Assembly: GCA_017852795.1 (NCBI GenBank)
Contig: JAFMKU010000009.1
Coordinates: forward strand, 1 to 54,375
Direction: 5' to 3'
Source: Candidatus Neomicrothrix sp.
GTDB lineage: Bacteria > Actinomycetota > Acidimicrobiia > Acidimicrobiales > Aldehydirespiratoraceae
Length of the DNA: 54,375 nt
The translations under genes were made by a program, and so were the position numbers. Under the pieces are notes generated by a model, which worked only from the letters and a program-made list of their open reading frames with translations, searched no databases and was not told where the DNA came from. Positions within the stretch are counted from its first letter, which is position 1; each line of letters begins with the position of its first letter. Positions 28,094 to 43,235 of this stretch are shown piece after piece.

Positions 28094-28495
28094 ATGACCG
28101 AAACCTCCCAAGAACCCAGTGAGGGCATGGTTCAACTTCTCGGATGGACCGGTCCCTGGTCCGACGATGATCCTGACGCCAATTTCAAAGCCGAGGTCGC
28201 GGCGCACGCGCATCTTGATGCGTTGGCGACGGTGGAACGGCTCAGCGAAAACCTCGGAGTTCCGGTCGGAGCGCTCGTCCATTACGTGCTGGCCCGTTGG
28301 GCGAGCGAAGGGAGCAGCGCGCTGCTCGAAATCGGCCCCCGGATGACCCGTCGATTGCAGGAACCGTTCCTCAACGCGGAAGCCGAGGGGACCGACGCAG
28401 CCCGACTCGACGCCTACGAGCAGGTTCGCCAAATGGTGCACTGGCTCAACCTTCCCCTCGACCAGCCGGAGATCTACGATCAACCCGGTTCGTAG
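28094..28495 (+). CDS. DUF6027-like small protein (family assignment from memory)
   Basis: 133 aa; WSDDDPDANFKAEVAAHAHLDALATVERLSENLGVPVGALVHYVLARWASEGS pattern. Confidence 0.6.
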   Translation: MTETSQEPSEGMVQLLGWTGPWSDDDPDANFKAEVAAHAHLDALATVERLSENLGVPVGALVHYVLARWASEGSSALLEIGPRMTRRLQEPFLNAEAEGTDAARLDAYEQVRQMVHWLNLPLDQPEIYDQPGS

Positions 28496-28528
28496 GCACT
28501 CGTCTTGCTGGGCTGGCACGATAGAGGT

Positions 28529-29266
28529 GTGGAACACCCCGAACCGCTCTACCAACATCGGTACCCATCTCCGGAACTCGAAGCGCAACACCCGTTTCGA
28601 ACGTTGGAGTTCACGCCTCGCGACCCGGAGGAAATGGCCCAGCGAGCCGAAACCTTCGCGACGTTCATGGGGCAACGCCGCAGCCCTCGACTGTTCTCCG
28701 ACCGGCCGGTGCCTGAGGCGTTGATCGAAGCGGCGATCCGCACCGCAGGAACCGCACCGTCGGGGGCGCACAAACAGCCGTGGCATTTCGTGGCGGTCAG
28801 CGACCCGGGGCTCAAAGCAACCATTCGGGTGGCCGCCGAAGAAGAAGAACGGGTCAACTACCTCGAAAACCGGATGAACGCCGAATGGCAGGAGGCGCTC
28901 GCTCCGATCGGCACCGACCACCACAAGGAATTTCTCGAAGTTGCCCCCTGGCTCGTGGTGCTGTTCGAACAGCGCTACGAACTGCGCTCCGATGGCGAGT
29001 CACGCAAAAACTATTACGTGAAGGAAAGCGTCGGGATGGCTGCCGGCCTGTTCGTTGCTGCGGTGCACCACATGGGCTTGGCAACCCTGCCTCACACCCC
29101 GTCACCCATGGCTTTTCTCCGGCAGGTCCTTGACCGTGGCCCCAATGAGCGGCCGTTCGCAATGTTTCCGGTTGGGTACCCACTCCCGGGAGTGAAAGTT
29201 CCGGATTTCGCCCGCAAGCCATTAGCGGAGATAATGACGGCCGTGACCCGACCCACTCCCGGATAG
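28529..29266 (+). CDS. Nitroreductase-fold flavoprotein, iodotyrosine deiodinase (IYD)-like
   Basis: RRSPRLFSDRPVP, GTAPSGAHKQPWHF, EEEERVNYLENRM, HKEFLEVAPWLVVLFEQ, NYYVKESVGMAAGLFVAAVHHMGLATLPHTPSPMAFL, FPVGYP. Confidence 0.85.
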   Translation: MEHPEPLYQHRYPSPELEAQHPFRTLEFTPRDPEEMAQRAETFATFMGQRRSPRLFSDRPVPEALIEAAIRTAGTAPSGAHKQPWHFVAVSDPGLKATIRVAAEEEERVNYLENRMNAEWQEALAPIGTDHHKEFLEVAPWLVVLFEQRYELRSDGESRKNYYVKESVGMAAGLFVAAVHHMGLATLPHTPSPMAFLRQVLDRGPNERPFAMFPVGYPLPGVKVPDFARKPLAEIMTAVTRPTPG

Positions 29267-29292
29267 GTTCACCGAACAGACAGGACACCCCA

Positions 29293-31827
29293 ATGGGCAA
29301 ACGTTCACTGATTGCGCTTCTCACCAGCCTTGCGTTGATCGCCGCAGCTTGTTCGGGAGGTGGTGACACGGTCGAAAAGACCACCGATGACACCGCCGGG
29401 GTGGACGAGTCAACGGAAACCGGTACCGACGAATCAGCCGGATCGGTGGTGACCGAAGATCGGGCCTATTACATCCTGCCGCCCGGTAACTACGGCGGCC
29501 TCCCGACCAACGAGAACAGCCTCGACCAGATGGCGCTCTACGACGGGTTGACACCATTGCGTGGTTCGGTCAGCGATGCCGACATTGAGCAGTTCTACCT
29601 CGCACAGAACTTCGAACCGATCGGCGCCACCCGGGTCGAAGAGACCGGGCGCGACGGGGTCACCGTCACCTACGACGAATGGGGGATCGCGCATGTGGTT
29701 GGCGACACCCGCGAAGACGTGGCCTTTGGAGCCGGTTGGGTCACAGCCCGTGACCGCGGCCTGCTGATCAGCCTTGGTCGCTGGGCGGCGCGCGCCGCGG
29801 TGGCCGACATTCCCGGTATCGACGCCTTCTCTCTGGTGACCAGCCTCACCCCCTACGAGCCAAGCGAGCAGGTAGAAGCGCTCGTCGACGCCCAAGTTGA
29901 ACTTTTGCTTGAAACCTACGGTGACGAAGGTGCCGAGGTGATGGCCGACGCGCAGGCCTACGCCGACGGCATGAACGCCTACTGGGGCGCGAACAACACG
30001 GACACCGATTGGGTCCCGTTTGAAGCCAAAGAAGTGATCGCCACTACTGCGTTTATCGGCTCGATCTTTGGCGCGGGTGGCGGATCAGAAGCCGCCAATG
30101 CCAGCTTCTTGGCTTCGCTCGAAGCCGAATTGGGTCCCGAACTTGGACGTTCGGTGTGGGAAGACCTGATGCAGACCGACGACCCGGAAGCGCCGACGAC
30201 GATCGACACCCGCTTCGAGTACGGCACCTACACCGGTGGTGACGTGACCGGTTCGGTGATGATCGACGCCGGATCGGTGATCTCGCTCGACCCACGCAAC
30301 CCCGATCCCGATGCGGCCCCGAACCTTCTGACCTCGGCGTACACGGTTTCTGCAGCCGGAGATCCCCCCGACCGGAAAGCTTCGAACTGGTTGACGGTGG
30401 CGCCCGACGCTTCGACCAACGACACCACCCTGGCCGTCATGGGTCCCCAGTTGGGCTACTACTACCCCGAGATCGTGATGCAGATCGACCTTCAAGGTCC
30501 TGGGATCAAGGCGCAAGGCGCCGCGGTTCCCGGATTGGCGATGTATTTGCTGATCGGCCGAACCGAGGATTACGCCTGGAGTCTTACGTCGGCCAACCAA
30601 GACGTTCGGGACGTTTTCGCCGAAGTGCTCTGCGAGCCGGATGGATCAACCCCGACCCGCCAGAGCACCCATTACGAGTTCGAAGGTGAATGCGTGGCCT
30701 TCGAAGCCTTCGATGCCGGTGTGCTCGGTGGTCAGGCCATTAGCTACCCGGTCTCGGTGCATGGTCCGGTGATTGGCACTGCCACCTCCGATGGTGCCCC
30801 GGTGGCTTTGACCCGTCAACGCTCAACGTTTGGCCGCGACGGGTTTAACTTGGTGGCGCTCAAGCGCATGACCGAAGGACAAGCCGAAACTCCGGAAGAT
30901 TTCTTTGAGATCGCCAACCACTTCGGCTTCACCTTCAACTGGGGTTACGCCAACCGCGAAACCAACGCCTATTTCGCGTCGGGACTTCTGCCAGAACGCG
31001 CACCAGGGCTCGACCGTCGACTCCCGACGCTCGGCACCGGCGAGTACGAATGGCAAGGCTTCCTTGCTCAAGACGAACATCCCCACGCGATCAGCAGCGA
31101 CAACGGGCGCCTCCTGAACTGGAACAACCAGTCGGCCCCAGGCTTCATGCACGGCGACGGCAACCTGTACGGGTCGTGGCATCGGGTCGAAAACTTTGAC
31201 CAGTGGGATGAAGACGCGACGCTGGCCGAGGTGGTTTCGGTGATGAACCGGGCCGCGACCGAAGACACTGCGGCGCCGGTCTGGCCGGTGATCTCAGAGG
31301 TGTTGGCCGCGGCCGAGGCACCGTCGGCGTTGGCCGCCGAGGCGCTCGCCATGTTGGATGCCTGGGTCGCCGACGACGCCCCGCTGCTTGACGCGGACGA
31401 AGATGGTTTCTGGGATGACCCCAGCGCTCGGATCCATCAAGAAATCTTCGACCCGCTGCTGTTCGCAGCCGTGGAACCGGTTCTTGGTTCGGTGATCTCC
31501 GCCGGTGTCTCCCTGCGAGGAATTGGTCTGACCAGCCTCGTTGACAAAGACCTTCGGACCCTGCTTGGACACTCCGTGGAAGGGGAGTTCGCCAACGCCT
31601 ACTGTGGCGCGGGTGACCTGACCACCTGTGCCGAAGCGTTGTGGGCGTCGATCGATGGACAGTTGCAGGCTGCCGCGGCGGAATTGGGTGACGATCTCAC
31701 CACCTGGCGTCGAGCGGGTCTGATGACCAGTTTCGTGCCGGGACTCATTCCCGACACCTTCCGCTCCACCAACCGACCGACCTACCAGCAGGTGCTGGAG
31801 TTTGCCCCGCAACGCCCAGTGGGCTGA
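29293..31827 (+). CDS. Penicillin acylase-family (Ntn-hydrolase) exported lipoprotein
   Basis: Lipobox signal RSLIALLTSLALIAAACSG; DEWGIAHVVGDTREDVAFGAGWVTARDRG; candidate nucleophile Ser in RKASNWLTV; WGYANRETNAYF. Confidence 0.88.
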   Translation: MGKRSLIALLTSLALIAAACSGGGDTVEKTTDDTAGVDESTETGTDESAGSVVTEDRAYYILPPGNYGGLPTNENSLDQMALYDGLTPLRGSVSDADIEQFYLAQNFEPIGATRVEETGRDGVTVTYDEWGIAHVVGDTREDVAFGAGWVTARDRGLLISLGRWAARAAVADIPGIDAFSLVTSLTPYEPSEQVEALVDAQVELLLETYGDEGAEVMADAQAYADGMNAYWGANNTDTDWVPFEAKEVIATTAFIGSIFGAGGGSEAANASFLASLEAELGPELGRSVWEDLMQTDDPEAPTTIDTRFEYGTYTGGDVTGSVMIDAGSVISLDPRNPDPDAAPNLLTSAYTVSAAGDPPDRKASNWLTVAPDASTNDTTLAVMGPQLGYYYPEIVMQIDLQGPGIKAQGAAVPGLAMYLLIGRTEDYAWSLTSANQDVRDVFAEVLCEPDGSTPTRQSTHYEFEGECVAFEAFDAGVLGGQAISYPVSVHGPVIGTATSDGAPVALTRQRSTFGRDGFNLVALKRMTEGQAETPEDFFEIANHFGFTFNWGYANRETNAYFASGLLPERAPGLDRRLPTLGTGEYEWQGFLAQDEHPHAISSDNGRLLNWNNQSAPGFMHGDGNLYGSWHRVENFDQWDEDATLAEVVSVMNRAATEDTAAPVWPVISEVLAAAEAPSALAAEALAMLDAWVADDAPLLDADEDGFWDDPSARIHQEIFDPLLFAAVEPVLGSVISAGVSLRGIGLTSLVDKDLRTLLGHSVEGEFANAYCGAGDLTTCAEALWASIDGQLQAAAAELGDDLTTWRRAGLMTSFVPGLIPDTFRSTNRPTYQQVLEFAPQRPVG

Positions 31828-31849
31828 ACGTGAACCTCGGGTTGTTCTG

Positions 31850-33010
31850 ATGAGTGACCGCACGACGGGAGATGTCGAAATCGCGGTGATTGGGCGAGGG
31901 TTGATCGGCTCGGCCGCGGCACGGCATCTCGCCGAAACAAACCGGTCGGTTGCGCTGATCGGTCCCGGTGAACCCGCCGACAGAACCACCAGCAACGGCC
32001 CGTTTTGCTCGCATCCCGATGAGGGACGGATCACCCGGATCGCCGGACGCAGCGAGATGTGGACCACCGTGGCGGCGCAGTCGATCGAACGCTACGCCGA
32101 CATTGCCCGTCGGTCCGGCATCGAGTTCCACACCCCTCGTGGGGTGCTGATCGGCTATCCAAACGGCCCTGAATGGCAGGCTCGGGCCGAAGTTTGGGGC
32201 AGTGACGCTCGAATCGTGGAGCGAGATTGGGTTCGGGAACATACCGGCATCGCCATTTCGAACGGCCACCCGTTGCTCTACGAAGGGGCACCCGCGGGCT
32301 ACATCAACCCCCGGCGGTTGGTAGCTGCTCAAACCGAACTGGCCCGCCAAGCCAACGCCTTCGTGGTGGAGGCGGCGGTCAACCGGATCGAACGGAACTC
32401 GTCGGGGCTGTTTCGGCTGGAAACCTCAAACGGTGCAGTGGTGGCCCGCCAGTTGCTGGTTGCTACCGGGGCTTTTGGATCACCGCTGTTCGAATGGAAA
32501 CTCAAGGTGGAACGACGGGCTCGGACCACGGTGATGGCCCGACTCGACGATGACCAACGAATCCCCAGCCTCCTTTTGGACTCGCCACCCGACGACCGAA
32601 TCAACGAGGCGTACTGGGTTCCACCGGTGCGCTACCCCGACGGTTCGGTGCGTATCAAAATTGGGGGCGACCTCAAGGCGACGGTGCTGCTCGACGACGC
32701 CGATCTGGTGCCGTGGTTTCGCAGCGACGGAGATCCGGTCGAAATCGAATGCCTGACCAACAACCTGTATGCACTCCTCCCTGACGCCCCGCTGGGCGAT
32801 GTGGTCACGGCCCCTTGCGTGATCACCGGTACTCCCAGCGAGATGCCTTACATCGGCTGGGTTGACGATGGAGTGGCGGTGGCGTTGGGAGGAAACGGGT
32901 CGGCGGCGAAATCAAGTGACGAACTCGGCCGCATCGCGGCGTCGCTGTTCGGCGAGTCGGGCTGGGATTCGATACTTTCTCCCGGATTGTTCACCCCGCA
33001 GCTGCTCTGA
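31850..33010 (+). CDS. DAO-family FAD-dependent oxidase (monomeric sarcosine oxidase-like)
   Basis: EIAVIGRGLIGSAAARHLAE, SEMWTTVAAQSIERYADIA, APCVITGTPSEMPYIG, GGNGSAAKSSDELG. Confidence 0.85.
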   Translation: MSDRTTGDVEIAVIGRGLIGSAAARHLAETNRSVALIGPGEPADRTTSNGPFCSHPDEGRITRIAGRSEMWTTVAAQSIERYADIARRSGIEFHTPRGVLIGYPNGPEWQARAEVWGSDARIVERDWVREHTGIAISNGHPLLYEGAPAGYINPRRLVAAQTELARQANAFVVEAAVNRIERNSSGLFRLETSNGAVVARQLLVATGAFGSPLFEWKLKVERRARTTVMARLDDDQRIPSLLLDSPPDDRINEAYWVPPVRYPDGSVRIKIGGDLKATVLLDDADLVPWFRSDGDPVEIECLTNNLYALLPDAPLGDVVTAPCVITGTPSEMPYIGWVDDGVAVALGGNGSAAKSSDELGRIAASLFGESGWDSILSPGLFTPQLL

Positions 33011-34400: not shown

Positions 34401-35180
34401 GTGACGCTTTCGTTGGAGCGCTATCCCGATATTGACTACCACGCCGAACGGGCCCGCAGCGACGACCTTGATGAGGTCAGGTTGTTGCGGAAATGGGAAG
34501 CGGCGATCGGCTACCGGATCTTTTCGGCGCTGCGCTGGGGGCAGCTTGGAGATGGCCACATTTCGGTGCGCGACCCTGAGTTCACCGATCACTTCTGGCT
34601 GTTGGGGTATGGAATCCCGTTCTGGGCCGCAACCGTGCACAACATGGCGCTGGTCGGGCCGGACGGCAGGATCGTTGACGGACCAGACGCCGGAGGGGTC
34701 AATACTGCCGGGTACAACATTCACGGTCCGGTGCTGGCCACCCACCCAAATCTGGTTTCGGCGGCTCACACCCACACGCAGTTCGGGACACCGTGGTCGG
34801 CCAATGTCGAACCGTTCTCGGCGATCAGCCAAGAGTCCTGTTCGTTTGTGGGGAACCAGGCGATCTATCACGGTGAAGATTTGGAAGTGGCAACCATCGA
34901 AGGTGGTCAACGGATCGCCGAGGCGATGGGGGGCAACAACCTGATCATCCTGCGTAACCATGGGCTGCTCACCGGGGGGCTGTCGCCGGCCGAAGCGGTC
35001 GGGTGGTTTGTTTTGGCCGAACGGGTTGCTGAGGTGCACGTCAAAGCCACCAACCCGAAACCGATTTCCGACGAGATGGCCAAGGTCGTCGCCGAGGAGT
35101 TCACGAAACCGGCGATGGCTTGGCGCACCTTCCAATGGCTGGCTCGGGATCTGGTTCCCGACCCGAGCGTGGTGCTCTAG
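34401..35180 (+). CDS. Class II aldolase/adducin family protein
   Basis: DGHISVRDPEF, AAHTHTQFGTPWSANVEPF, IILRNHGLLTGG; GTG start. Confidence 0.9.
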   Translation: MTLSLERYPDIDYHAERARSDDLDEVRLLRKWEAAIGYRIFSALRWGQLGDGHISVRDPEFTDHFWLLGYGIPFWAATVHNMALVGPDGRIVDGPDAGGVNTAGYNIHGPVLATHPNLVSAAHTHTQFGTPWSANVEPFSAISQESCSFVGNQAIYHGEDLEVATIEGGQRIAEAMGGNNLIILRNHGLLTGGLSPAEAVGWFVLAERVAEVHVKATNPKPISDEMAKVVAEEFTKPAMAWRTFQWLARDLVPDPSVVL

Positions 35181-37330
35181 TTGCCAGCTGCTTTCTGACG
35201 GCGTCGGTGGCTTCGGAGCACCGACTCGGTGTATCCGTTGGGTTGCGATCGACCGTCGAGAACCAGAGCCAGCGCAGCCTGGAACGGGATCGAATCGGTG
35301 TAGCTCGTTGCCATCGCCTGGTAGGCGTCGTCGCCAGCGTTCTGGTCGTCAACTGCGATCGCCATTCGTTCCATCGTCGCCTGCACCTGCTGGTGATCGA
35401 CGATGCCGTGGTGCAGCCAGTTGGCGACATGCTGGCTGGAGATCCGCAGGGTGGCGAGGTCTTCCATCAGACCGATGTTGTCGATGTCGGGAACCGTTGA
35501 GCAACCCACCCCCTGACCGACCCAACGGACCACGTAGCCGAGGATTGACTGGCAGTTGTTGTCGAGTTCGGTTTGGACCTCGTCGGGAGAGAGTTCCCTA
35601 GTGAGCACCGGCAGCGCGGTTAGTTCGGAGCGGCTGCGGTGGGAACGTCCGGACAGTTCTTCTTGGCGGGCGGCGACGTTGTGCGAGAAGTAGTGGGTGG
35701 CGTGCAGGGTGGCTGCGGTGGGTGACGGCACCCAGGCGCAGGTCGCACCGGCCTGTGGGTGAGCGCCTTTGGTGGCCAGCATTTCGGCCATCTCCGAAGG
35801 TTTGGCCCACATGCCTTTGCCGATCTGAGCGCGGTTTTGAAGCCCTGAAGCCAGCCCGGTATCGACGTTGTTGTCTTCGTAGGCCAGAAGCCAGGTGGCG
35901 CTTTTCATTTCGCCTTTGGGAACGACCGGACCGGCTTCCATGTCGGTGTGAATCTCGTCGCCGGTTCGGTCGAGGAAACCGGTGTTGATAAACACCAGAC
36001 GGTCTCGGGCTTGCTCGATGGCGGCGGCCAAGTTGAGAGAGGTTCGCCGTTCCTCGTCCATGATCCCCATCTTGAGGGTGTGGCGGTCGAGGCCCAACGC
36101 ATCCTCGACTCGTTCGAACAACCGGCAAGCCCAAGCCACCTCGTCAACGCCGTGCATTTTGGGTTTGACGATGTAGATCGACCCGGTGCGGCTGTTGCGG
36201 TACGGTCCCGAACCGGCCAGGTCGTGTTTCCCGGCTACGGCGGTTACGAACGCATCAAGAATGGTTTCGGCGATCGGTTCGCCGTCCAAGGTGACGGCCT
36301 CGGTGGTGAGGTGATGGCCGACGTTGCGGACCAGCATCAACGCCCGCCCGGGCATCACGAGTTCGCCCCCGTCGGCTGCTGTGTAGCGCCGGTCAGGATG
36401 AAGGCGACGTTCAACGTCAACCCCGTCTTTGCGGAAGCTGCTGGTGAGATTTCCGGTCATTAAGCCAAGCCAGTTGCCGTACACGACCGCTTTGTCGCTG
36501 GCATCTACGGCGCTAACCGAATCTTCGCAATCCATAATCGACGAGATCGCCGACTCCACGTCAATGTCAGCCAACCCCGCGGGGTCATCGGCGCCAATGG
36601 GATGCTCCCGGTCGATGCGAAGGTCGGCGTGGAGGCCATGCTTGACCAGCAGCACGTTGTGAGGGGCATCGGTGGGTCCGGCGAACCCCACGAACTGTTG
36701 GCGATCGGCGAGGCGGGCCGTGGTCGAACCCAACGCCACGTTCAACTGGCCGTCAACCACCGAATACCCGGTGGCGTCGTGATGGGAGCCGTCGTCAAGC
36801 GGAAAGTGCGCATCGAGAAAGTCGCGAGCCCAAGCAATGACTCGGGCTCCCCGGACCGGGTTGTAGCCCCGGCCGGCTTCGGCCCCGTCGGTGTCAGCGA
36901 TGACGTCGGTGCCGTACAGGGCGTCGTAGAGGCTTCCCCAACGGGCGTTGGCGGCGTTGAGGGCGTAGCGGGCGTTGTCGAGTGGGACCACCAGCTGGGC
37001 GCCAGCGATCGAAGCGATCTCCGGGTCAACCCCGGTGGTGGCAAGCTGCACCGAAGACGGTGTTGGTTCCAGATACCCGATCGTTTCGAGAAACGTCACA
37101 TAGGCGCTCTGGTCAAACGATGCCCGGTGCTCGATCAGATAGGCGTCGATCTGAGCTTGGAGGTCGTCGCGTCGGTTGAGCAGTTCACGATTTCGAGGGC
37201 CGAGTTCTCGCACGGTGGCTTCGAGCGCTGCCCAGAACGAGTCCGGGTCCACCCCAGAACCGGGGAGTAGATGGGAACCCACAAAGGTGTGGATTGGCTC
37301 GGCAACATTGAGAGATCCGACGGTAACCAT
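35177..37330 (-). CDS. glcB: Malate synthase G
   Basis: NAANARWGSLYDALYGTDVI, SIMDCEDSVSAVDASDKAVVYGNWLGLMTGNL, IYIVKPKMHGVDEVA, GIMDEERRTSLNLAA; the ORF extends to 37351, alternative start. Confidence 0.95.
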   Translation of the reverse strand: MVTVGSLNVAEPIHTFVGSHLLPGSGVDPDSFWAALEATVRELGPRNRELLNRRDDLQAQIDAYLIEHRASFDQSAYVTFLETIGYLEPTPSSVQLATTGVDPEIASIAGAQLVVPLDNARYALNAANARWGSLYDALYGTDVIADTDGAEAGRGYNPVRGARVIAWARDFLDAHFPLDDGSHHDATGYSVVDGQLNVALGSTTARLADRQQFVGFAGPTDAPHNVLLVKHGLHADLRIDREHPIGADDPAGLADIDVESAISSIMDCEDSVSAVDASDKAVVYGNWLGLMTGNLTSSFRKDGVDVERRLHPDRRYTAADGGELVMPGRALMLVRNVGHHLTTEAVTLDGEPIAETILDAFVTAVAGKHDLAGSGPYRNSRTGSIYIVKPKMHGVDEVAWACRLFERVEDALGLDRHTLKMGIMDEERRTSLNLAAAIEQARDRLVFINTGFLDRTGDEIHTDMEAGPVVPKGEMKSATWLLAYEDNNVDTGLASGLQNRAQIGKGMWAKPSEMAEMLATKGAHPQAGATCAWVPSPTAATLHATHYFSHNVAARQEELSGRSHRSRSELTALPVLTRELSPDEVQTELDNNCQSILGYVVRWVGQGVGCSTVPDIDNIGLMEDLATLRISSQHVANWLHHGIVDHQQVQATMERMAIAVDDQNAGDDAYQAMATSYTDSIPFQAALALVLDGRSQPNGYTESVLRSHRRRQKAAGN

Positions 37331-37360
37331 GGCTTCGAGGGTAACGGCCACGGGACCGGG

Positions 37361-37918
37361 TCAGTCGGCGAACTCGTCGGCGGCGTCAAGGAGCGACTGG
37401 AAGAAATAGTCGCCGTAGGAACGGTCGCAGAGCAGGAGATAACTCCGCACCCCGACCTGATCGTCACGGACCAGATCACAGGTCACTCGGGCAACGGTCG
37501 CCCCCCACGCGGCCCGATTGGGGGTGAACGCATCGTCGAAGTTGCTGCTGCACACCTTGGCCAGCACGTCGGCACTGCGAGGACCGCTGACCCGCAGCAT
37601 CATTCGTCCATGGGTGAGGTCAACGGTGGAGACAAAACCGTCACGGTCGAGATTGTGGATCGTCTCGTCTACCTGAGCAGCCGAACCCAACAGCAACCAT
37701 TCGTGCTGGCGGTGATGCACGACCAGCACACCGTTTCGCTGCGCTGCGGTACCCAAGGCCACTGCGAACCCTTTGGCGGTTTCGGTCCCTTCCCCGGCTT
37801 TGACCGAGCATTTGCTCCAGTCGGACACATCGCTGATGGTCACCGCAGCAGCACTGGTTGATTCAGCACTGGTTGTTTCAGCACTGGTTACCGAACTTCG
37901 GAACACGGGATCAGCCAC
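37361..37918 (-). CDS. soxG: Sarcosine oxidase gamma subunit
   Basis: Follows soxA with 8-bp overlap; DLTHGRMMLRVSGPRSADVLAKVCSSNFDDAFTPNRAAWGATVARV. Confidence 0.85.
   Translation of the reverse strand: MADPVFRSSVTSAETTSAESTSAAAVTISDVSDWSKCSVKAGEGTETAKGFAVALGTAAQRNGVLVVHHRQHEWLLLGSAAQVDETIHNLDRDGFVSTVDLTHGRMMLRVSGPRSADVLAKVCSSNFDDAFTPNRAAWGATVARVTCDLVRDDQVGVRSYLLLCDRSYGDYFFQSLLDAADEFAD
37849..37893. repeat. Three 15-bp tandem units (CAGCACTGGTTGATT / CAGCACTGGTTGTTT / CAGCACTGGTTACCG) in the 5' end of soxG
   Basis: Direct reading; encodes a low-complexity TSAETTSAESTSA N-terminus. Confidence 0.85.
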
Positions 37919-40760
37919 GAAGCCGGCTCCCTTCAGGATCGAAATGGGCGTGATGTTCCATTACCTGGGCAGTGGTTCGGGTGCCGTTGGCGAGAACGAT
38001 GGTGAGCGTCGTGCCTGGTGTGGCGACATCGGGATGTACCTGCGCAAGGCAGACGGAACGGTTGAGGGTGGGGGAGAAACGCGACGAAGTGATCCGGCCC
38101 AGAATCTGGTTCGTGCCAGCCGCCACGATCTGGGCTGCTTCCTCGGGCACCACGGTCGGATCGGTTGGCTGAACAGCGACGATCCGCGGACCGTCCCCGC
38201 GCGACAACGCCCAGACGACCTCGGGTTTGCCCACCCAGTCGTCCTTTTCGACTTTGAGCAGTGTCTCAAGACCGGTCACTGGTGCTTTGGATAGACCGTC
38301 GGTGTCTTGGCCAACAATGAAATGGCCTTTCTCTAGACGCATGATCCGCTGGGCTTCTAACCCGAACGGGGCTACCCCCAAGTCTTGACCGTGAACGAGC
38401 AACTGCTCCCACACGAACAATCCGAAACCGCTCGGCACGTGAACCTCATAGGACAGTTCGCCGGTGAAACCGATCCTCCAGACGATGCAGTTCGCAACCC
38501 CAGCGACCGTGCCGGTGCGGACCTGCATGTATTGGAAGGCATCGGGGCCGAGGTCGATGTCGTTGGTGAGCCGTTCCAGAAGCTGCCGGCTGTCCGGTCC
38601 GGCCACGTTGATCGAGGTCAACCCGGTAGTGACCGGGGTGATGTGAACCTGCCAGTCAGGGTGTTCGGTCTGAAGCCAGTTCTCAGCCCAGTTCCAGACC
38701 GTGGCCGCCCCCGACGAAGTAGTAGTCATCAGGTAATGCTCCGGTCCGAGCCGCCCGGTGACCCCGTCGTCGAGCACGACACCGTCTTCGGCGCACATCA
38801 GTCCGTACCGGACCGCGCCTTGCGGGAGTGCGTTCCAGGAATTGGTGTAGAGCAGGTTGAGCAGTTTGGGCACATCTGGGCCCTGAAGGTCCAGCTTCCC
38901 CAGCGGGGTGATGTCGATGATGCCGACCCGGTTTCGGGTGTTGCGCACTTCGGATTCGGGGTCGCCGTAATGGTTCGGACGAATCCACTGCCCGGCCAGA
39001 ATCGGCTGCGCGCCGTGAGCCTCATGCCAGGGTTGGATAGAGCTCATGCGTACCGGTTCGTGGATCCGACCCGCCAACGCGCCAAGGCTGATCGGCGCGT
39101 ACGGTGGCCGCCAGACGGTCGTGCCAACCTGCTCGATGGTTTCGCCTCGGGCTTCGGCGAGCACCGCCACCGTGTTGACCGTCTCGAGCTTGCCCTGTGA
39201 CGGACCCATGGTGGTGGTGGTGAACCGTTTGACCAGCTCGACCGAATCAAACCCTTCGTCGGCGGCTTGGACAAGATCCTTGGACGAGACATCCTCGGAG
39301 TAGTCGACGATTCCGTGCGTGGTTGACCGGAACAGTGCCGGATGCGAACCGTGCGGGAGTGGGGGGCGTTCGTCGGCGGGCCACGCCGGTTCCGGGGTCG
39401 TGACCGGTTCGGCACGGCGGGTCAGGTGTTGTAGCCGGTGACGAACAACCCCAGCCCGGGCCGCGGCGAGCAAACCAGTTGCTTCACCGTGCGCCACCAG
39501 TTGTTCAGTGGTGCCATCACCAGCCAGACCTCCGGTGGCCAGCACGTTGTCGGGTGGGCACCAGGGAAAGAACCGGGCCGCTTCCGGGTCGTACACCGGA
39601 CGATCGCCGGACATGTTCAGCAGCGACGTGGGGGTGGTCCAACCTACGGCGGTGATCAGCAGGTCACTGTCGATACGGCGGCCATCGGCCAACGTCACCC
39701 GGCGGACCCGGTTTCGCCCGTGGGCGGCGACCACGTTGCCACCGAGTCGACCATCAACCACCGCGGCGATCGTTACTCCGGCTGCCTCCAACGCAACCAC
39801 CGCGGCGTCGCCGGACGGGTTTGCGGTGAACACCACGGCCCGGTTCCCGGGTTTCACGCCGTACATCGTGATGAGGCGTCGTACCGCACCGGAGGTCATC
39901 ACGCCCGGGAGGTCGTTACCGGCAAAGACGTAGGGGCGTTCGATCGTTCCCGCCGCCACGATCAGTACCCCGGCCCGAGCTTTGATCAACCGTTCGTCAA
40001 TCCCGGGAAGGCCGCGTTGGGAGATCGCCAACCAGTTGTCCTCGTAGCGTCCTGTCACGGTGGCGTCGGTCAGCACTTCCACCCCGGCCGCTCGCACCGC
40101 GTGGGCTAAGCGTGCGGCTTCGGCCCGATCGGTGTCATCGCCCCAACACAGATGGCCTCCGAGTTGGTGCTCGTGTTCGACCAGCATCACCGACGCTCCG
40201 GCTTGGGCCGCGGCCAGCGCCGCGGCCATCCCGGCCGGTCCACCGCCAGCCACGACCACATCGGGGTGGGCGTAGCGTTTGTCGTTGCGGGGTGGCGGAG
40301 CATCGAGATCCACCACTCCGCCGGGAGCGAACGTGCCGAGCACACGGGCGTAAAGCGGCCAAAGCGCGGCCGGTTTCATAAACGTCTTGTAGTAGAAGCC
40401 GGCGGTCAGGAAGCGCCCCACCAGCCGGTTGGCCGATTTGAGATCGAACCGTAACGACGGCCAGACGTTCTGGGCCGAAACGTTCATTCCGTCGCGTAGT
40501 AGGCGATGGCTAGCGCGCACGTTTGGTTCATCGCCGACCTGCACGGTGGTGTTGGGATCCCAGTAGTCGGCAGTGAGCGGGCCGCGGGGCCGGTGGTATT
40601 TCATGGAGCGGCCAGTGATCGTGATGCCGTTGGCCAACAACGCCGAAACGATGGTGTCGCCTTCGTACCCGCGGAGCCGTCGACCGTTCCAGGTAAACGT
40701 CAGCGGTACGTCCCGATTGATGAGCTGGCCGGGAGCGTCAGGTATCCGGTGGTTGCTCAC
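37911..40760 (-). CDS. soxA: Sarcosine oxidase alpha subunit
   Basis: LTFTWNGRRLRGYEGDTIVSALLANGI, VVAGGGPAGMAAALAAAQAG, C-terminal aminomethyltransferase-like domain; GTGA overlap with soxD. Confidence 0.93.
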   Translation of the reverse strand: MSNHRIPDAPGQLINRDVPLTFTWNGRRLRGYEGDTIVSALLANGITITGRSMKYHRPRGPLTADYWDPNTTVQVGDEPNVRASHRLLRDGMNVSAQNVWPSLRFDLKSANRLVGRFLTAGFYYKTFMKPAALWPLYARVLGTFAPGGVVDLDAPPPRNDKRYAHPDVVVAGGGPAGMAAALAAAQAGASVMLVEHEHQLGGHLCWGDDTDRAEAARLAHAVRAAGVEVLTDATVTGRYEDNWLAISQRGLPGIDERLIKARAGVLIVAAGTIERPYVFAGNDLPGVMTSGAVRRLITMYGVKPGNRAVVFTANPSGDAAVVALEAAGVTIAAVVDGRLGGNVVAAHGRNRVRRVTLADGRRIDSDLLITAVGWTTPTSLLNMSGDRPVYDPEAARFFPWCPPDNVLATGGLAGDGTTEQLVAHGEATGLLAAARAGVVRHRLQHLTRRAEPVTTPEPAWPADERPPLPHGSHPALFRSTTHGIVDYSEDVSSKDLVQAADEGFDSVELVKRFTTTTMGPSQGKLETVNTVAVLAEARGETIEQVGTTVWRPPYAPISLGALAGRIHEPVRMSSIQPWHEAHGAQPILAGQWIRPNHYGDPESEVRNTRNRVGIIDITPLGKLDLQGPDVPKLLNLLYTNSWNALPQGAVRYGLMCAEDGVVLDDGVTGRLGPEHYLMTTTSSGAATVWNWAENWLQTEHPDWQVHITPVTTGLTSINVAGPDSRQLLERLTNDIDLGPDAFQYMQVRTGTVAGVANCIVWRIGFTGELSYEVHVPSGFGLFVWEQLLVHGQDLGVAPFGLEAQRIMRLEKGHFIVGQDTDGLSKAPVTGLETLLKVEKDDWVGKPEVVWALSRGDGPRIVAVQPTDPTVVPEEAAQIVAAGTNQILGRITSSRFSPTLNRSVCLAQVHPDVATPGTTLTIVLANGTRTTAQVMEHHAHFDPEGSRLRG

Positions 40761-41050
40761 GGTTCGGTTCCATCGGAGATAGGGCGGCCCGCCACTTTGT
40801 TGCCGGGCAGCAACGGTTCGCGGAGTTCACCGGTGGTGGTGTTGCGCTCCAGCGTGAAAAAGGTTCGGCATCCGGAAGAACAGAACCACCCTTCGCGTAA
40901 CCAACCCGCCGGGTTGTCCCGCAGGTACAGGTAGCTGCGCCACTCCTCGGGGGTGGCTTGGTTTGGATCGGGACGCGAATGGGTTTCGCCTCGGTAGGTG
41001 AGCTCAGCGGCGTTCTTCGGGCCGCACACCGGGCAGGGGACGAGCAGCAT
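40757..41050 (-). CDS. soxD: Sarcosine oxidase delta subunit
   Basis: VPCPVCGPKNAAELTYRGETHSRP ... EGWFCSSGCRTFFTLERNT. Confidence 0.93.
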   Translation of the reverse strand: MLLVPCPVCGPKNAAELTYRGETHSRPDPNQATPEEWRSYLYLRDNPAGWLREGWFCSSGCRTFFTLERNTTTGELREPLLPGNKVAGRPISDGTEP

Positions 41051-42363
41051 CAGTGACCCACCGCGGCCGCGCCCTTTTCGCCGACCAGGTCACCTCGGCT
41101 GAACCGTTCCAACCCGAACGGTGCGATCAGTTCAGGAACCCGACCGTTGGCTACGCAGGCAGCCATCTGTTCACCGGAGACCGGACCGGCTTTGAAACCG
41201 TACGTCCCCCAGCCGACATCGACATGGAACCCTTCGACCGGGGTGGGCCCCATCACCGGCGAATAGTCCGGAGTCATGTCGCAGAGGCCCGCCCACTGGC
41301 GCAGCAACCGCATTCGGCCAATGCCTGGCATCAATTCCAGAACGTGGCTGGCTAGCTCCTCGGTGAACTCCAAGGTGCCACCCATCTGATAGGTGGCCAT
41401 CGGGTCTACCGATGCGCCGAACACCAGCTCTCCTCGGTCGGTTTGACTGACGTAGACGTGCAACGAACCCGAGACGACGACGGTGGGGAGAAAGACCTTC
41501 ACCGGCTCGGTAACCGCAGCCTGCAACGGGTGAGTGGTGATCGGCAACCGCACACCCGCCATGCTGGCGATCGTGCTGGCCCAGCCGGCGGTGCAGTTCA
41601 CCACCAGCGGTGCCGAGATGTCTCCCCGGCTGGTCCGAACGCCCACCACACGTCCCCCCGGGCCTTTGCCTTCGGGTCCGTCACCGCCGGTGCACAACAC
41701 GTCAAGCACTTCGGTTTTCTGGTGGAGATCTACCCCGTAGGCGTCGGCAGCTCGGGCGTATCCCCATACCACCGCGTCGTGGCGGATCGTTCCACCAGGC
41801 GGGTGGTACAGCGCGCCAAGGATCGGGTAACGAACGTTTTCGCTGACATCGAGCGATGGGGTGAGCCGCTTCACTTCGGCCGGGTCGATCACCGAAGAGT
41901 TGATTCCCTGCAACTTGTTGACTTCGGCGCGCCAATGCATGGTCCGCAGCGCACTGTCGGTGTGGGCGAGGGTCAGGTGACCTCGTTCGCTAAACATCAC
42001 GTTCAGGTTCAGGTCTCGGGCCATCGAGTTGTACAGCGTGAGCGAACGGTCGTAGAAGGCAACGCCTTCAGGGGTGAGATAGTTCGAGCGAACGATGGCG
42101 GTGTTGCGGCCCGAACCTCCCGACCCGAGGTAGCCCTTTTCCAGCACGGCCACGTTGGTGATCCCATGGTTGGCGGCCAGATAGTAGGCAGTGGCTAGTC
42201 CGTGCACGCCACCACCGATGATGACGACGTCGTAGTGGGAACCAAACTCGGGTTCCCGCCAGACCCGCGGCCAAGACTCTTTGCTGAACCCCCGGCGGAT
42301 CAGCCCACCAAGGGAATACTTCGCCGCCCGACGTTGCTTGATCACCGGTGAAGTCTGCCTCAT
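41050..42363 (-). CDS. soxB: Sarcosine oxidase beta subunit
   Basis: KYSLGGLIRRGFSKESWPRVWREPEFGSHYDVVIIGGGVHGLATAYYLAANHGITNVAVLEKGYLGSGGSGRNTAIVRSNY; ORF extends to 42450 but the conserved start is near 42363. Confidence 0.93.
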   Translation of the reverse strand: MRQTSPVIKQRRAAKYSLGGLIRRGFSKESWPRVWREPEFGSHYDVVIIGGGVHGLATAYYLAANHGITNVAVLEKGYLGSGGSGRNTAIVRSNYLTPEGVAFYDRSLTLYNSMARDLNLNVMFSERGHLTLAHTDSALRTMHWRAEVNKLQGINSSVIDPAEVKRLTPSLDVSENVRYPILGALYHPPGGTIRHDAVVWGYARAADAYGVDLHQKTEVLDVLCTGGDGPEGKGPGGRVVGVRTSRGDISAPLVVNCTAGWASTIASMAGVRLPITTHPLQAAVTEPVKVFLPTVVVSGSLHVYVSQTDRGELVFGASVDPMATYQMGGTLEFTEELASHVLELMPGIGRMRLLRQWAGLCDMTPDYSPVMGPTPVEGFHVDVGWGTYGFKAGPVSGEQMAACVANGRVPELIAPFGLERFSRGDLVGEKGAAAVGH

Positions 42364-42443
42364 CGCCGGGACGGTGAAAAGTCGCCGGATGCCGGGTCGT
42401 TGCGAAAGCCGCAGCGTCTGAGCGAGGGGGCTACGGTCGGGGT

Positions 42444-43235
42444 ATGACAAGAGATGCAGAAGTGCTCGCCGGTCGCGTGGCGTTCATCACCGGGGCTGGA
42501 GACGGGATCGGAGCCGGGATCGCCCGGGTGTTCGCCGCTCACGGAGCCCGCGTGGTGGTGGCCGAGATCAACGCCGAAACGGGCCAACAGGTAGCGGATT
42601 CGCTCAATGGTCGCGGCGTGTTCATCCCGACCGATGTCGCTGATCGCAACAGCGTCGTTGCGGGGGTGACGTCAACCATCGACACCTTCGGGCGGTTGGA
42701 CATTCTGGTCAACAACGCTTGGGGTGGCGGAGGAATCGGACGGGTGGAACGCAAAACGCCGGAAGCGGTTCAGGCCGGTCTCAACGTGGGCTTTCTGGGT
42801 CCGTTGTGGGCCATGAACGCAGCCCATCCGGTGATGAAAGCCAACGGTTGGGGTCGGGTCATCAACCTGTGTTCACTCAACGGGGTCAACGCCCACATGG
42901 GCACGTTGGAATACAACTCAGCGAAGGAAGCATTGCGGGCGGCGAGCCGGACCGCGGCCCGGGAGTGGGCGGGTTCGGGTATCACGGTGAACGTGATCTG
43001 CCCGGCCGCCAAATCGGCAGCGTTTCGTCGGGTCATGGCCCAGAACCCTGAACTCGAAGCGGCGGCCGATGCGTCCAACCCGATGGGCCGCATGGGTGAC
43101 CCCGACGAGGACATCGCTCCCGTTGCGTTGTTTCTGGCCAGCGATGCCAGCCGCTACCTGACCGGAAACACGTTGTTTGTTGACGGTGGTTCCCACATCA
43201 ACGGCTCCGCTTGGGCACCAGACCTCGGCGAGTAA
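42444..43235 (+). CDS. SDR family oxidoreductase
   Basis: GRVAFITGAGDGIGAGIAR, NNAWGGGG, YNSAKEALRAA, DGGSHINGSAW. Confidence 0.9.
   Translation: MTRDAEVLAGRVAFITGAGDGIGAGIARVFAAHGARVVVAEINAETGQQVADSLNGRGVFIPTDVADRNSVVAGVTSTIDTFGRLDILVNNAWGGGGIGRVERKTPEAVQAGLNVGFLGPLWAMNAAHPVMKANGWGRVINLCSLNGVNAHMGTLEYNSAKEALRAASRTAAREWAGSGITVNVICPAAKSAAFRRVMAQNPELEAAADASNPMGRMGDPDEDIAPVALFLASDASRYLTGNTLFVDGGSHINGSAWAPDLGE

Follow-up and report, generated by a model that had tools for sequence, protein, structure and literature searches.

Four plus-strand genes encoding a DUF6027 protein, an iodotyrosine deiodinase (IYD)-like flavoprotein, an exported acylase and an MSOX-like oxidase lie almost end to end at positions 28094-33010 of a 54,375-nucleotide stretch of Candidatus Neomicrothrix sp. 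DNA (the window), and the question raised by this run is whether its enzymes form one pathway or have become neighbors in some other way. The first-pass annotation read the run as a joint halotyrosine pathway, with gaps of about 33, 26 and 22 bp between the genes. Those gaps are exact, and all of its single-gene identities hold (including the DAO/MSOX-like FAD oxidase and the lipoprotein signal and penicillin-acylase motifs of the third gene), but the joint pathway is not supported.

All four open reading frames are complete and free of internal stops, and orthologs of each occur in other genomes of the family at approximately 57-77% identity, so they are real genes. The run is flanked by minus-strand genes, encoding a periplasmic-binding-type lipoprotein on one side and a TauE/SafE permease on the other (by Pfam). 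Judging from the spacing, it is plausible that the four genes are now co-transcribed; a promoter and terminator scan of the run gave nothing above chance, and an Rfam search led nowhere. The compact arrangement is known from one contig of a metagenome-assembled genome (MAG) estimated to be 92% complete.

Proteins encoded by the run

The second gene (28529-29266, plus strand, GTG start preceded by an in-frame TTG at 28505; 245 amino acids, nitroreductase family PF00881 3.8e-22) can be assigned firmly by sequence to the IYD family of FMN proteins, because its FMN contacts and lid triad are conserved and it falls in one clade with human and Haliscomenobacter IYD (hhIYD; support 95/94), apart from 12 ordinary nitroreductases of related genomes. 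Its best match among solved structures is Haliscomenobacter hydrossis IYD (5ko7, 1.5e-71 by phmmer), and human IYD (4ttb) is matched at 2.4e-47. The halotyrosine-binding lid triad is conserved as Glu107/Tyr111/Lys133, and the full Glu-Tyr-Lys set occurs in every IYD compared but in no nitroreductase among the 12; the human residues that bind the halotyrosine zwitterion are E157, Y161 and K182. Mouse IYD contacts FMN through eight listed residues (R96, R97, S98, R100, P123, S124, T235 and R275; PMC3930498), and each has its counterpart here (R50, R51, S52, R54, P77, S78, T190 and R229). On the tree and the residues we rejected both an ordinary nitroreductase and BluB, whose profile also scores too low (45.9 bits, cut-off 150). 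The protein thus shares with hhIYD and human IYD their subgroup of the nitroreductase superfamily, and differs from them in coming from Acidimicrobiia rather than Bacteroidota or animals. It would most likely work alone, reductively dehalogenating halotyrosines or similar halophenols in an FMN-dependent reaction; a literature search on marine IYD or bromotyrosine debromination led nowhere.

The third gene (29293-31827, plus strand, ATG start, 844 amino acids) matches PF01804 at 248 bits (3.7e-73; gathering score 21.3) and the beta chain of penicillin G acylase 6nvy at 6.1e-34. Ser364 aligns with residue 1 of that beta chain and, like the GPQ and NWNN active-site motifs, is conserved in orthologs; Cys20 is a probable lipoprotein cysteine. 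By these features the protein is an exported Ntn hydrolase of the penicillin-amidase family, with Ser364 as the predicted autoprocessing residue that begins the beta chain. Its relation to 6nvy is distant, and the lipoprotein-type signal sets it apart, although the autoprocessing serine and both motifs are common to the two. Penicillin G acylases are closer to it than PvdQ is, and its low score for the PvdQ-type AHL acylase family (NCBIfam NF051460, 10.5 bits; cut-off 950) led us to reject that identity.

The fourth gene (31850-33010, plus strand, ATG start, 386 amino acids; PF01266, 114 bits, 1.2e-32) is nearest to MSOX both by sequence and by fold (MSOX is the best fold match, E 1.8e-20, of a moderate structure model with pLDDT 64.5). 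It carries a GxGxxG motif at position 15 and an SHxxxxRIxR motif, and K270 and C323 are invariant among orthologs; these are probably the O2-activating lysine and the covalent FAD cysteine, which from motif likeness would be equivalent to K265 and C315 of MSOX. The DAO fold, FAD motif and candidate catalytic lysine and covalent cysteine are shared with monomeric sarcosine oxidase, N-methyltryptophan oxidase and NikD, whereas identity to these enzymes is only about 20% and NCBIfam scores fall below the cut-offs (for the curated monomeric sarcosine oxidase family TIGR01377, 47.7 bits against 479.65). The enzyme is of the MSOX type, and its probable substrates are secondary or N-methylated amino acids. 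At loci L190 and L191 (family f59) a gene of the Rid family (imine/enamine deaminases) lies immediately before the oxidase gene, as would suit an amine oxidase that produces an imine.

The first gene (28094-28495, plus strand, ATG start, 133 amino acids) is covered over its full length by PF19492 (4.7e-50). Its low-confidence, all-helical model (pLDDT 65.7) gave no significant fold match, and our literature search found no paper mentioning DUF6027. Because the two genes are separated in relatives by a divergent SDR-TetR pair, DUF6027 was not an ancestral member of an operon with IYD, and we rejected a functional partnership between them.

The locus in related genomes and across the order

The comparison covered the locus in seven further members of the genus and in four genomes from a sister genus. 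The general order, from which individual genomes miss some genes, is binding protein (minus strand), DUF6027 (plus), SDR (minus), BetI-like TetR (minus), IYD (plus), an optional acylase (plus), a thioesterase (plus, this genus), a DddP-like M24 protein (plus), EamA (plus), variable genes, a second SDR (minus, this genus) and the oxidase (plus), followed by TauE (minus) and then by OGT, aldolase, malate synthase and sarcosine oxidase genes. One genome (G041), for example, carries a sulfatase but neither M24 nor EamA, and contig ends divide the locus in three others (G042, G043 and G019). The divergent TetR gene adjoins IYD at all 11 sister loci in both genera, and the SDR gene is present at each of the 10 loci whose contig extends that far. 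Genes intervene before the oxidase in every relative whose stretch is readable: in the two with an intact acylase, about 3 kb is occupied by a thioesterase, an M24 protein or sulfatase and an SDR, and other relatives also have EamA. The conserved neighborhood of IYD, acylase and DAO that the first-pass annotation had proposed as a check on its pathway is therefore not there; the tight four-gene arrangement appears in no other genome examined, and the searches found no adjacent set in independent lineages.

The M24 proteins (L034:13103-14341, L031:5136-6326 and orthologs) are closest to the DMSP lyase DddP (257 bits, cut-off 600). The sister-genus copies keep the residues predicted to bind metal or act in catalysis, whereas changes are seen at these positions in the copies of G039 (Glu to Lys, Asp to Tyr), G044 (Asp to Asn, Glu to Gly) and G043.

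The window genome has none of the genes that lie between DUF6027 and IYD or between acylase and oxidase elsewhere. A whole-genome search found no ortholog of the thioesterase or EamA in it; for M24 the sole match was at 26% identity (E 4.6e-5) and for the BetI-like regulator there were only general TetR matches, neither an ortholog. It is likely that these genes are truly missing from the rest of the genome, at 92% completeness. The flanking order is kept, with the binding protein on one side and TauE, OGT, aldolase, malate synthase, SoxG and SoxA on the other. Downstream of the run, on the minus strand at 35177-42450 of the window, lie the malate synthase and heterotetrameric sarcosine oxidase genes in conserved synteny, including SoxG (37361-37918), SoxA (37911-40760) and a SoxB-like DAO gene (41050-42450).

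Apart from the three loci split over contig ends, IYD and the oxidase remain in one locus across the genus and its sister. The acylase is less constant: within the genus, G039 and G041 carry it, G044 retains only a C-terminal remnant and no copy was found in G037, G040, G042 or G043; these last five of the seven relatives all keep IYD and the oxidase. The remnant (L032:9965-10339, corresponding to residues 713-839) is a decaying gene between IYD and the thioesterase. The three acylases of the genus form one clade (support 100/99), which fits a gene that came to lie behind IYD once, in the ancestor of the genus, and was later lost from some descendants. Acylase orthologs of similar identity occur in other genera far from IYD (in G029, for example, the two lie at 274 kb and 2.69 Mb of a single contig).

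Of 248 genomes of the order, 31 have IYD, 10 the acylase, 14 the oxidase and 23 DUF6027 (thresholds differ between these searches), and IYD, acylase and oxidase are linked only within this genus. IYD and acylase co-occur in the window genome (G000), G050, G056 and G161, adjacent only in the first; IYD and oxidase co-occur in G000, G040, G044, G126, G154 and G192, and share a contig only in the first three. The oxidase is found without IYD in G032 and in family f59. The 80 IYD loci that we examined, nearly all from Acidimicrobiia, have many differing, lineage-specific neighbors, and this variety, together with the unlinked occurrence across the order, indicates that IYD behaves as a stand-alone gene. 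At ten loci of another lineage (L062, L069, L070, L088, L089, L092, L095, L109, L115 and L122), an Amidohydro_3 family protein of 580 amino acids directly follows IYD and a divergent class III CoA transferase precedes it.

Origin of the compact arrangement

The reading that we favor, with a probability of about three in four, is that the run is what compaction has left of an older chromosomal neighborhood, in which IYD would be a stand-alone gene among unrelated neighbors, and not a purpose-built operon. Given the genes that intervene in relatives and their absence from the window genome, gene loss is the simplest reading of the adjacency. Deletions would have joined DUF6027 to IYD at 28496-28528 (33 bp, where relatives have the divergent SDR and BetI-like TetR genes, ~1.4 kb) and the acylase to the oxidase at 31828-31849 (22 bp, against ~3 kb of other genes in the two relatives with an intact acylase). 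The acylase would be a secreted Ntn amidase that settled behind IYD once, and the oxidase a separate MSOX-type enzyme with heterotetrameric sarcosine oxidase genes further downstream; nothing indicates a shared substrate for the enzymes of the run.

An alternative, which we consider unlikely, takes the window run as the trimmed part of an ancestral regulon (BetI-like TetR, IYD, thioesterase, DddP-like M24, EamA and oxidase) that dealt with an N-methylated compound or with an osmolyte of the methylated or sulfonium type. The locus is common to two genera, the resemblances of M24 to DddP, of the regulator to BetI and of the sulfatase to choline sulfatases point in this direction, and the MSOX-like oxidase has sarcosine oxidase genes nearby; but the profile scores of M24, regulator and sulfatase are all under curated cut-offs, the M24 residues are altered in several relatives of the genus, IYD would have no obvious role and G032 has the oxidase without IYD. 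Because the same block also keeps plainly unrelated genes (OGT and malate synthase), its synteny may be inertia, and the linkage of IYD and oxidase is weak evidence of shared function.

We regard as very improbable the single pathway in which the exported acylase frees halotyrosine from an N-acyl conjugate, cytoplasmic IYD dehalogenates it and the oxidase deaminates the product. The genes are co-directional and tightly spaced, and the IYD active site, the catalytic serine of the acylase and the FAD motifs of the oxidase are intact, yet the acylase has been lost or has decayed in five relatives that keep the other two, the three genes are unlinked or alone in other genomes, MSOX (which the oxidase resembles) favors secondary amines and the run has no dedicated importer or aromatic catabolic genes. 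Counting against the reading that we favor, besides the single MAG contig and the shared locus of IYD and oxidase in both genera, is that IYD, acylase and oxidase all survived the loss of their neighbors, perhaps through joint selection on them; that they were retained through genome reduction for joint salvage of N-acylated halotyrosine-type compounds in seawater seems to us a slim chance. An assembly artifact joining unrelated pieces is the least credible explanation, for although the arrangement occurs in this MAG only, both flanks and the IYD-acylase junction follow the order in relatives, and clean losses within a conserved backbone suffice.

Implications for IYD-family genes

With its compaction most likely due mainly to gene loss, the run in this marine actinobacterium is, as far as can be seen, no dedicated halotyrosine pathway. 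Intact IYD-family genes occur in many lineages of Acidimicrobiia, and no partner genes accompany them consistently. More generally, loss of intervening genes can bring co-directional genes close together in a small genome, and spacing alone is therefore no basis for reading a pathway.
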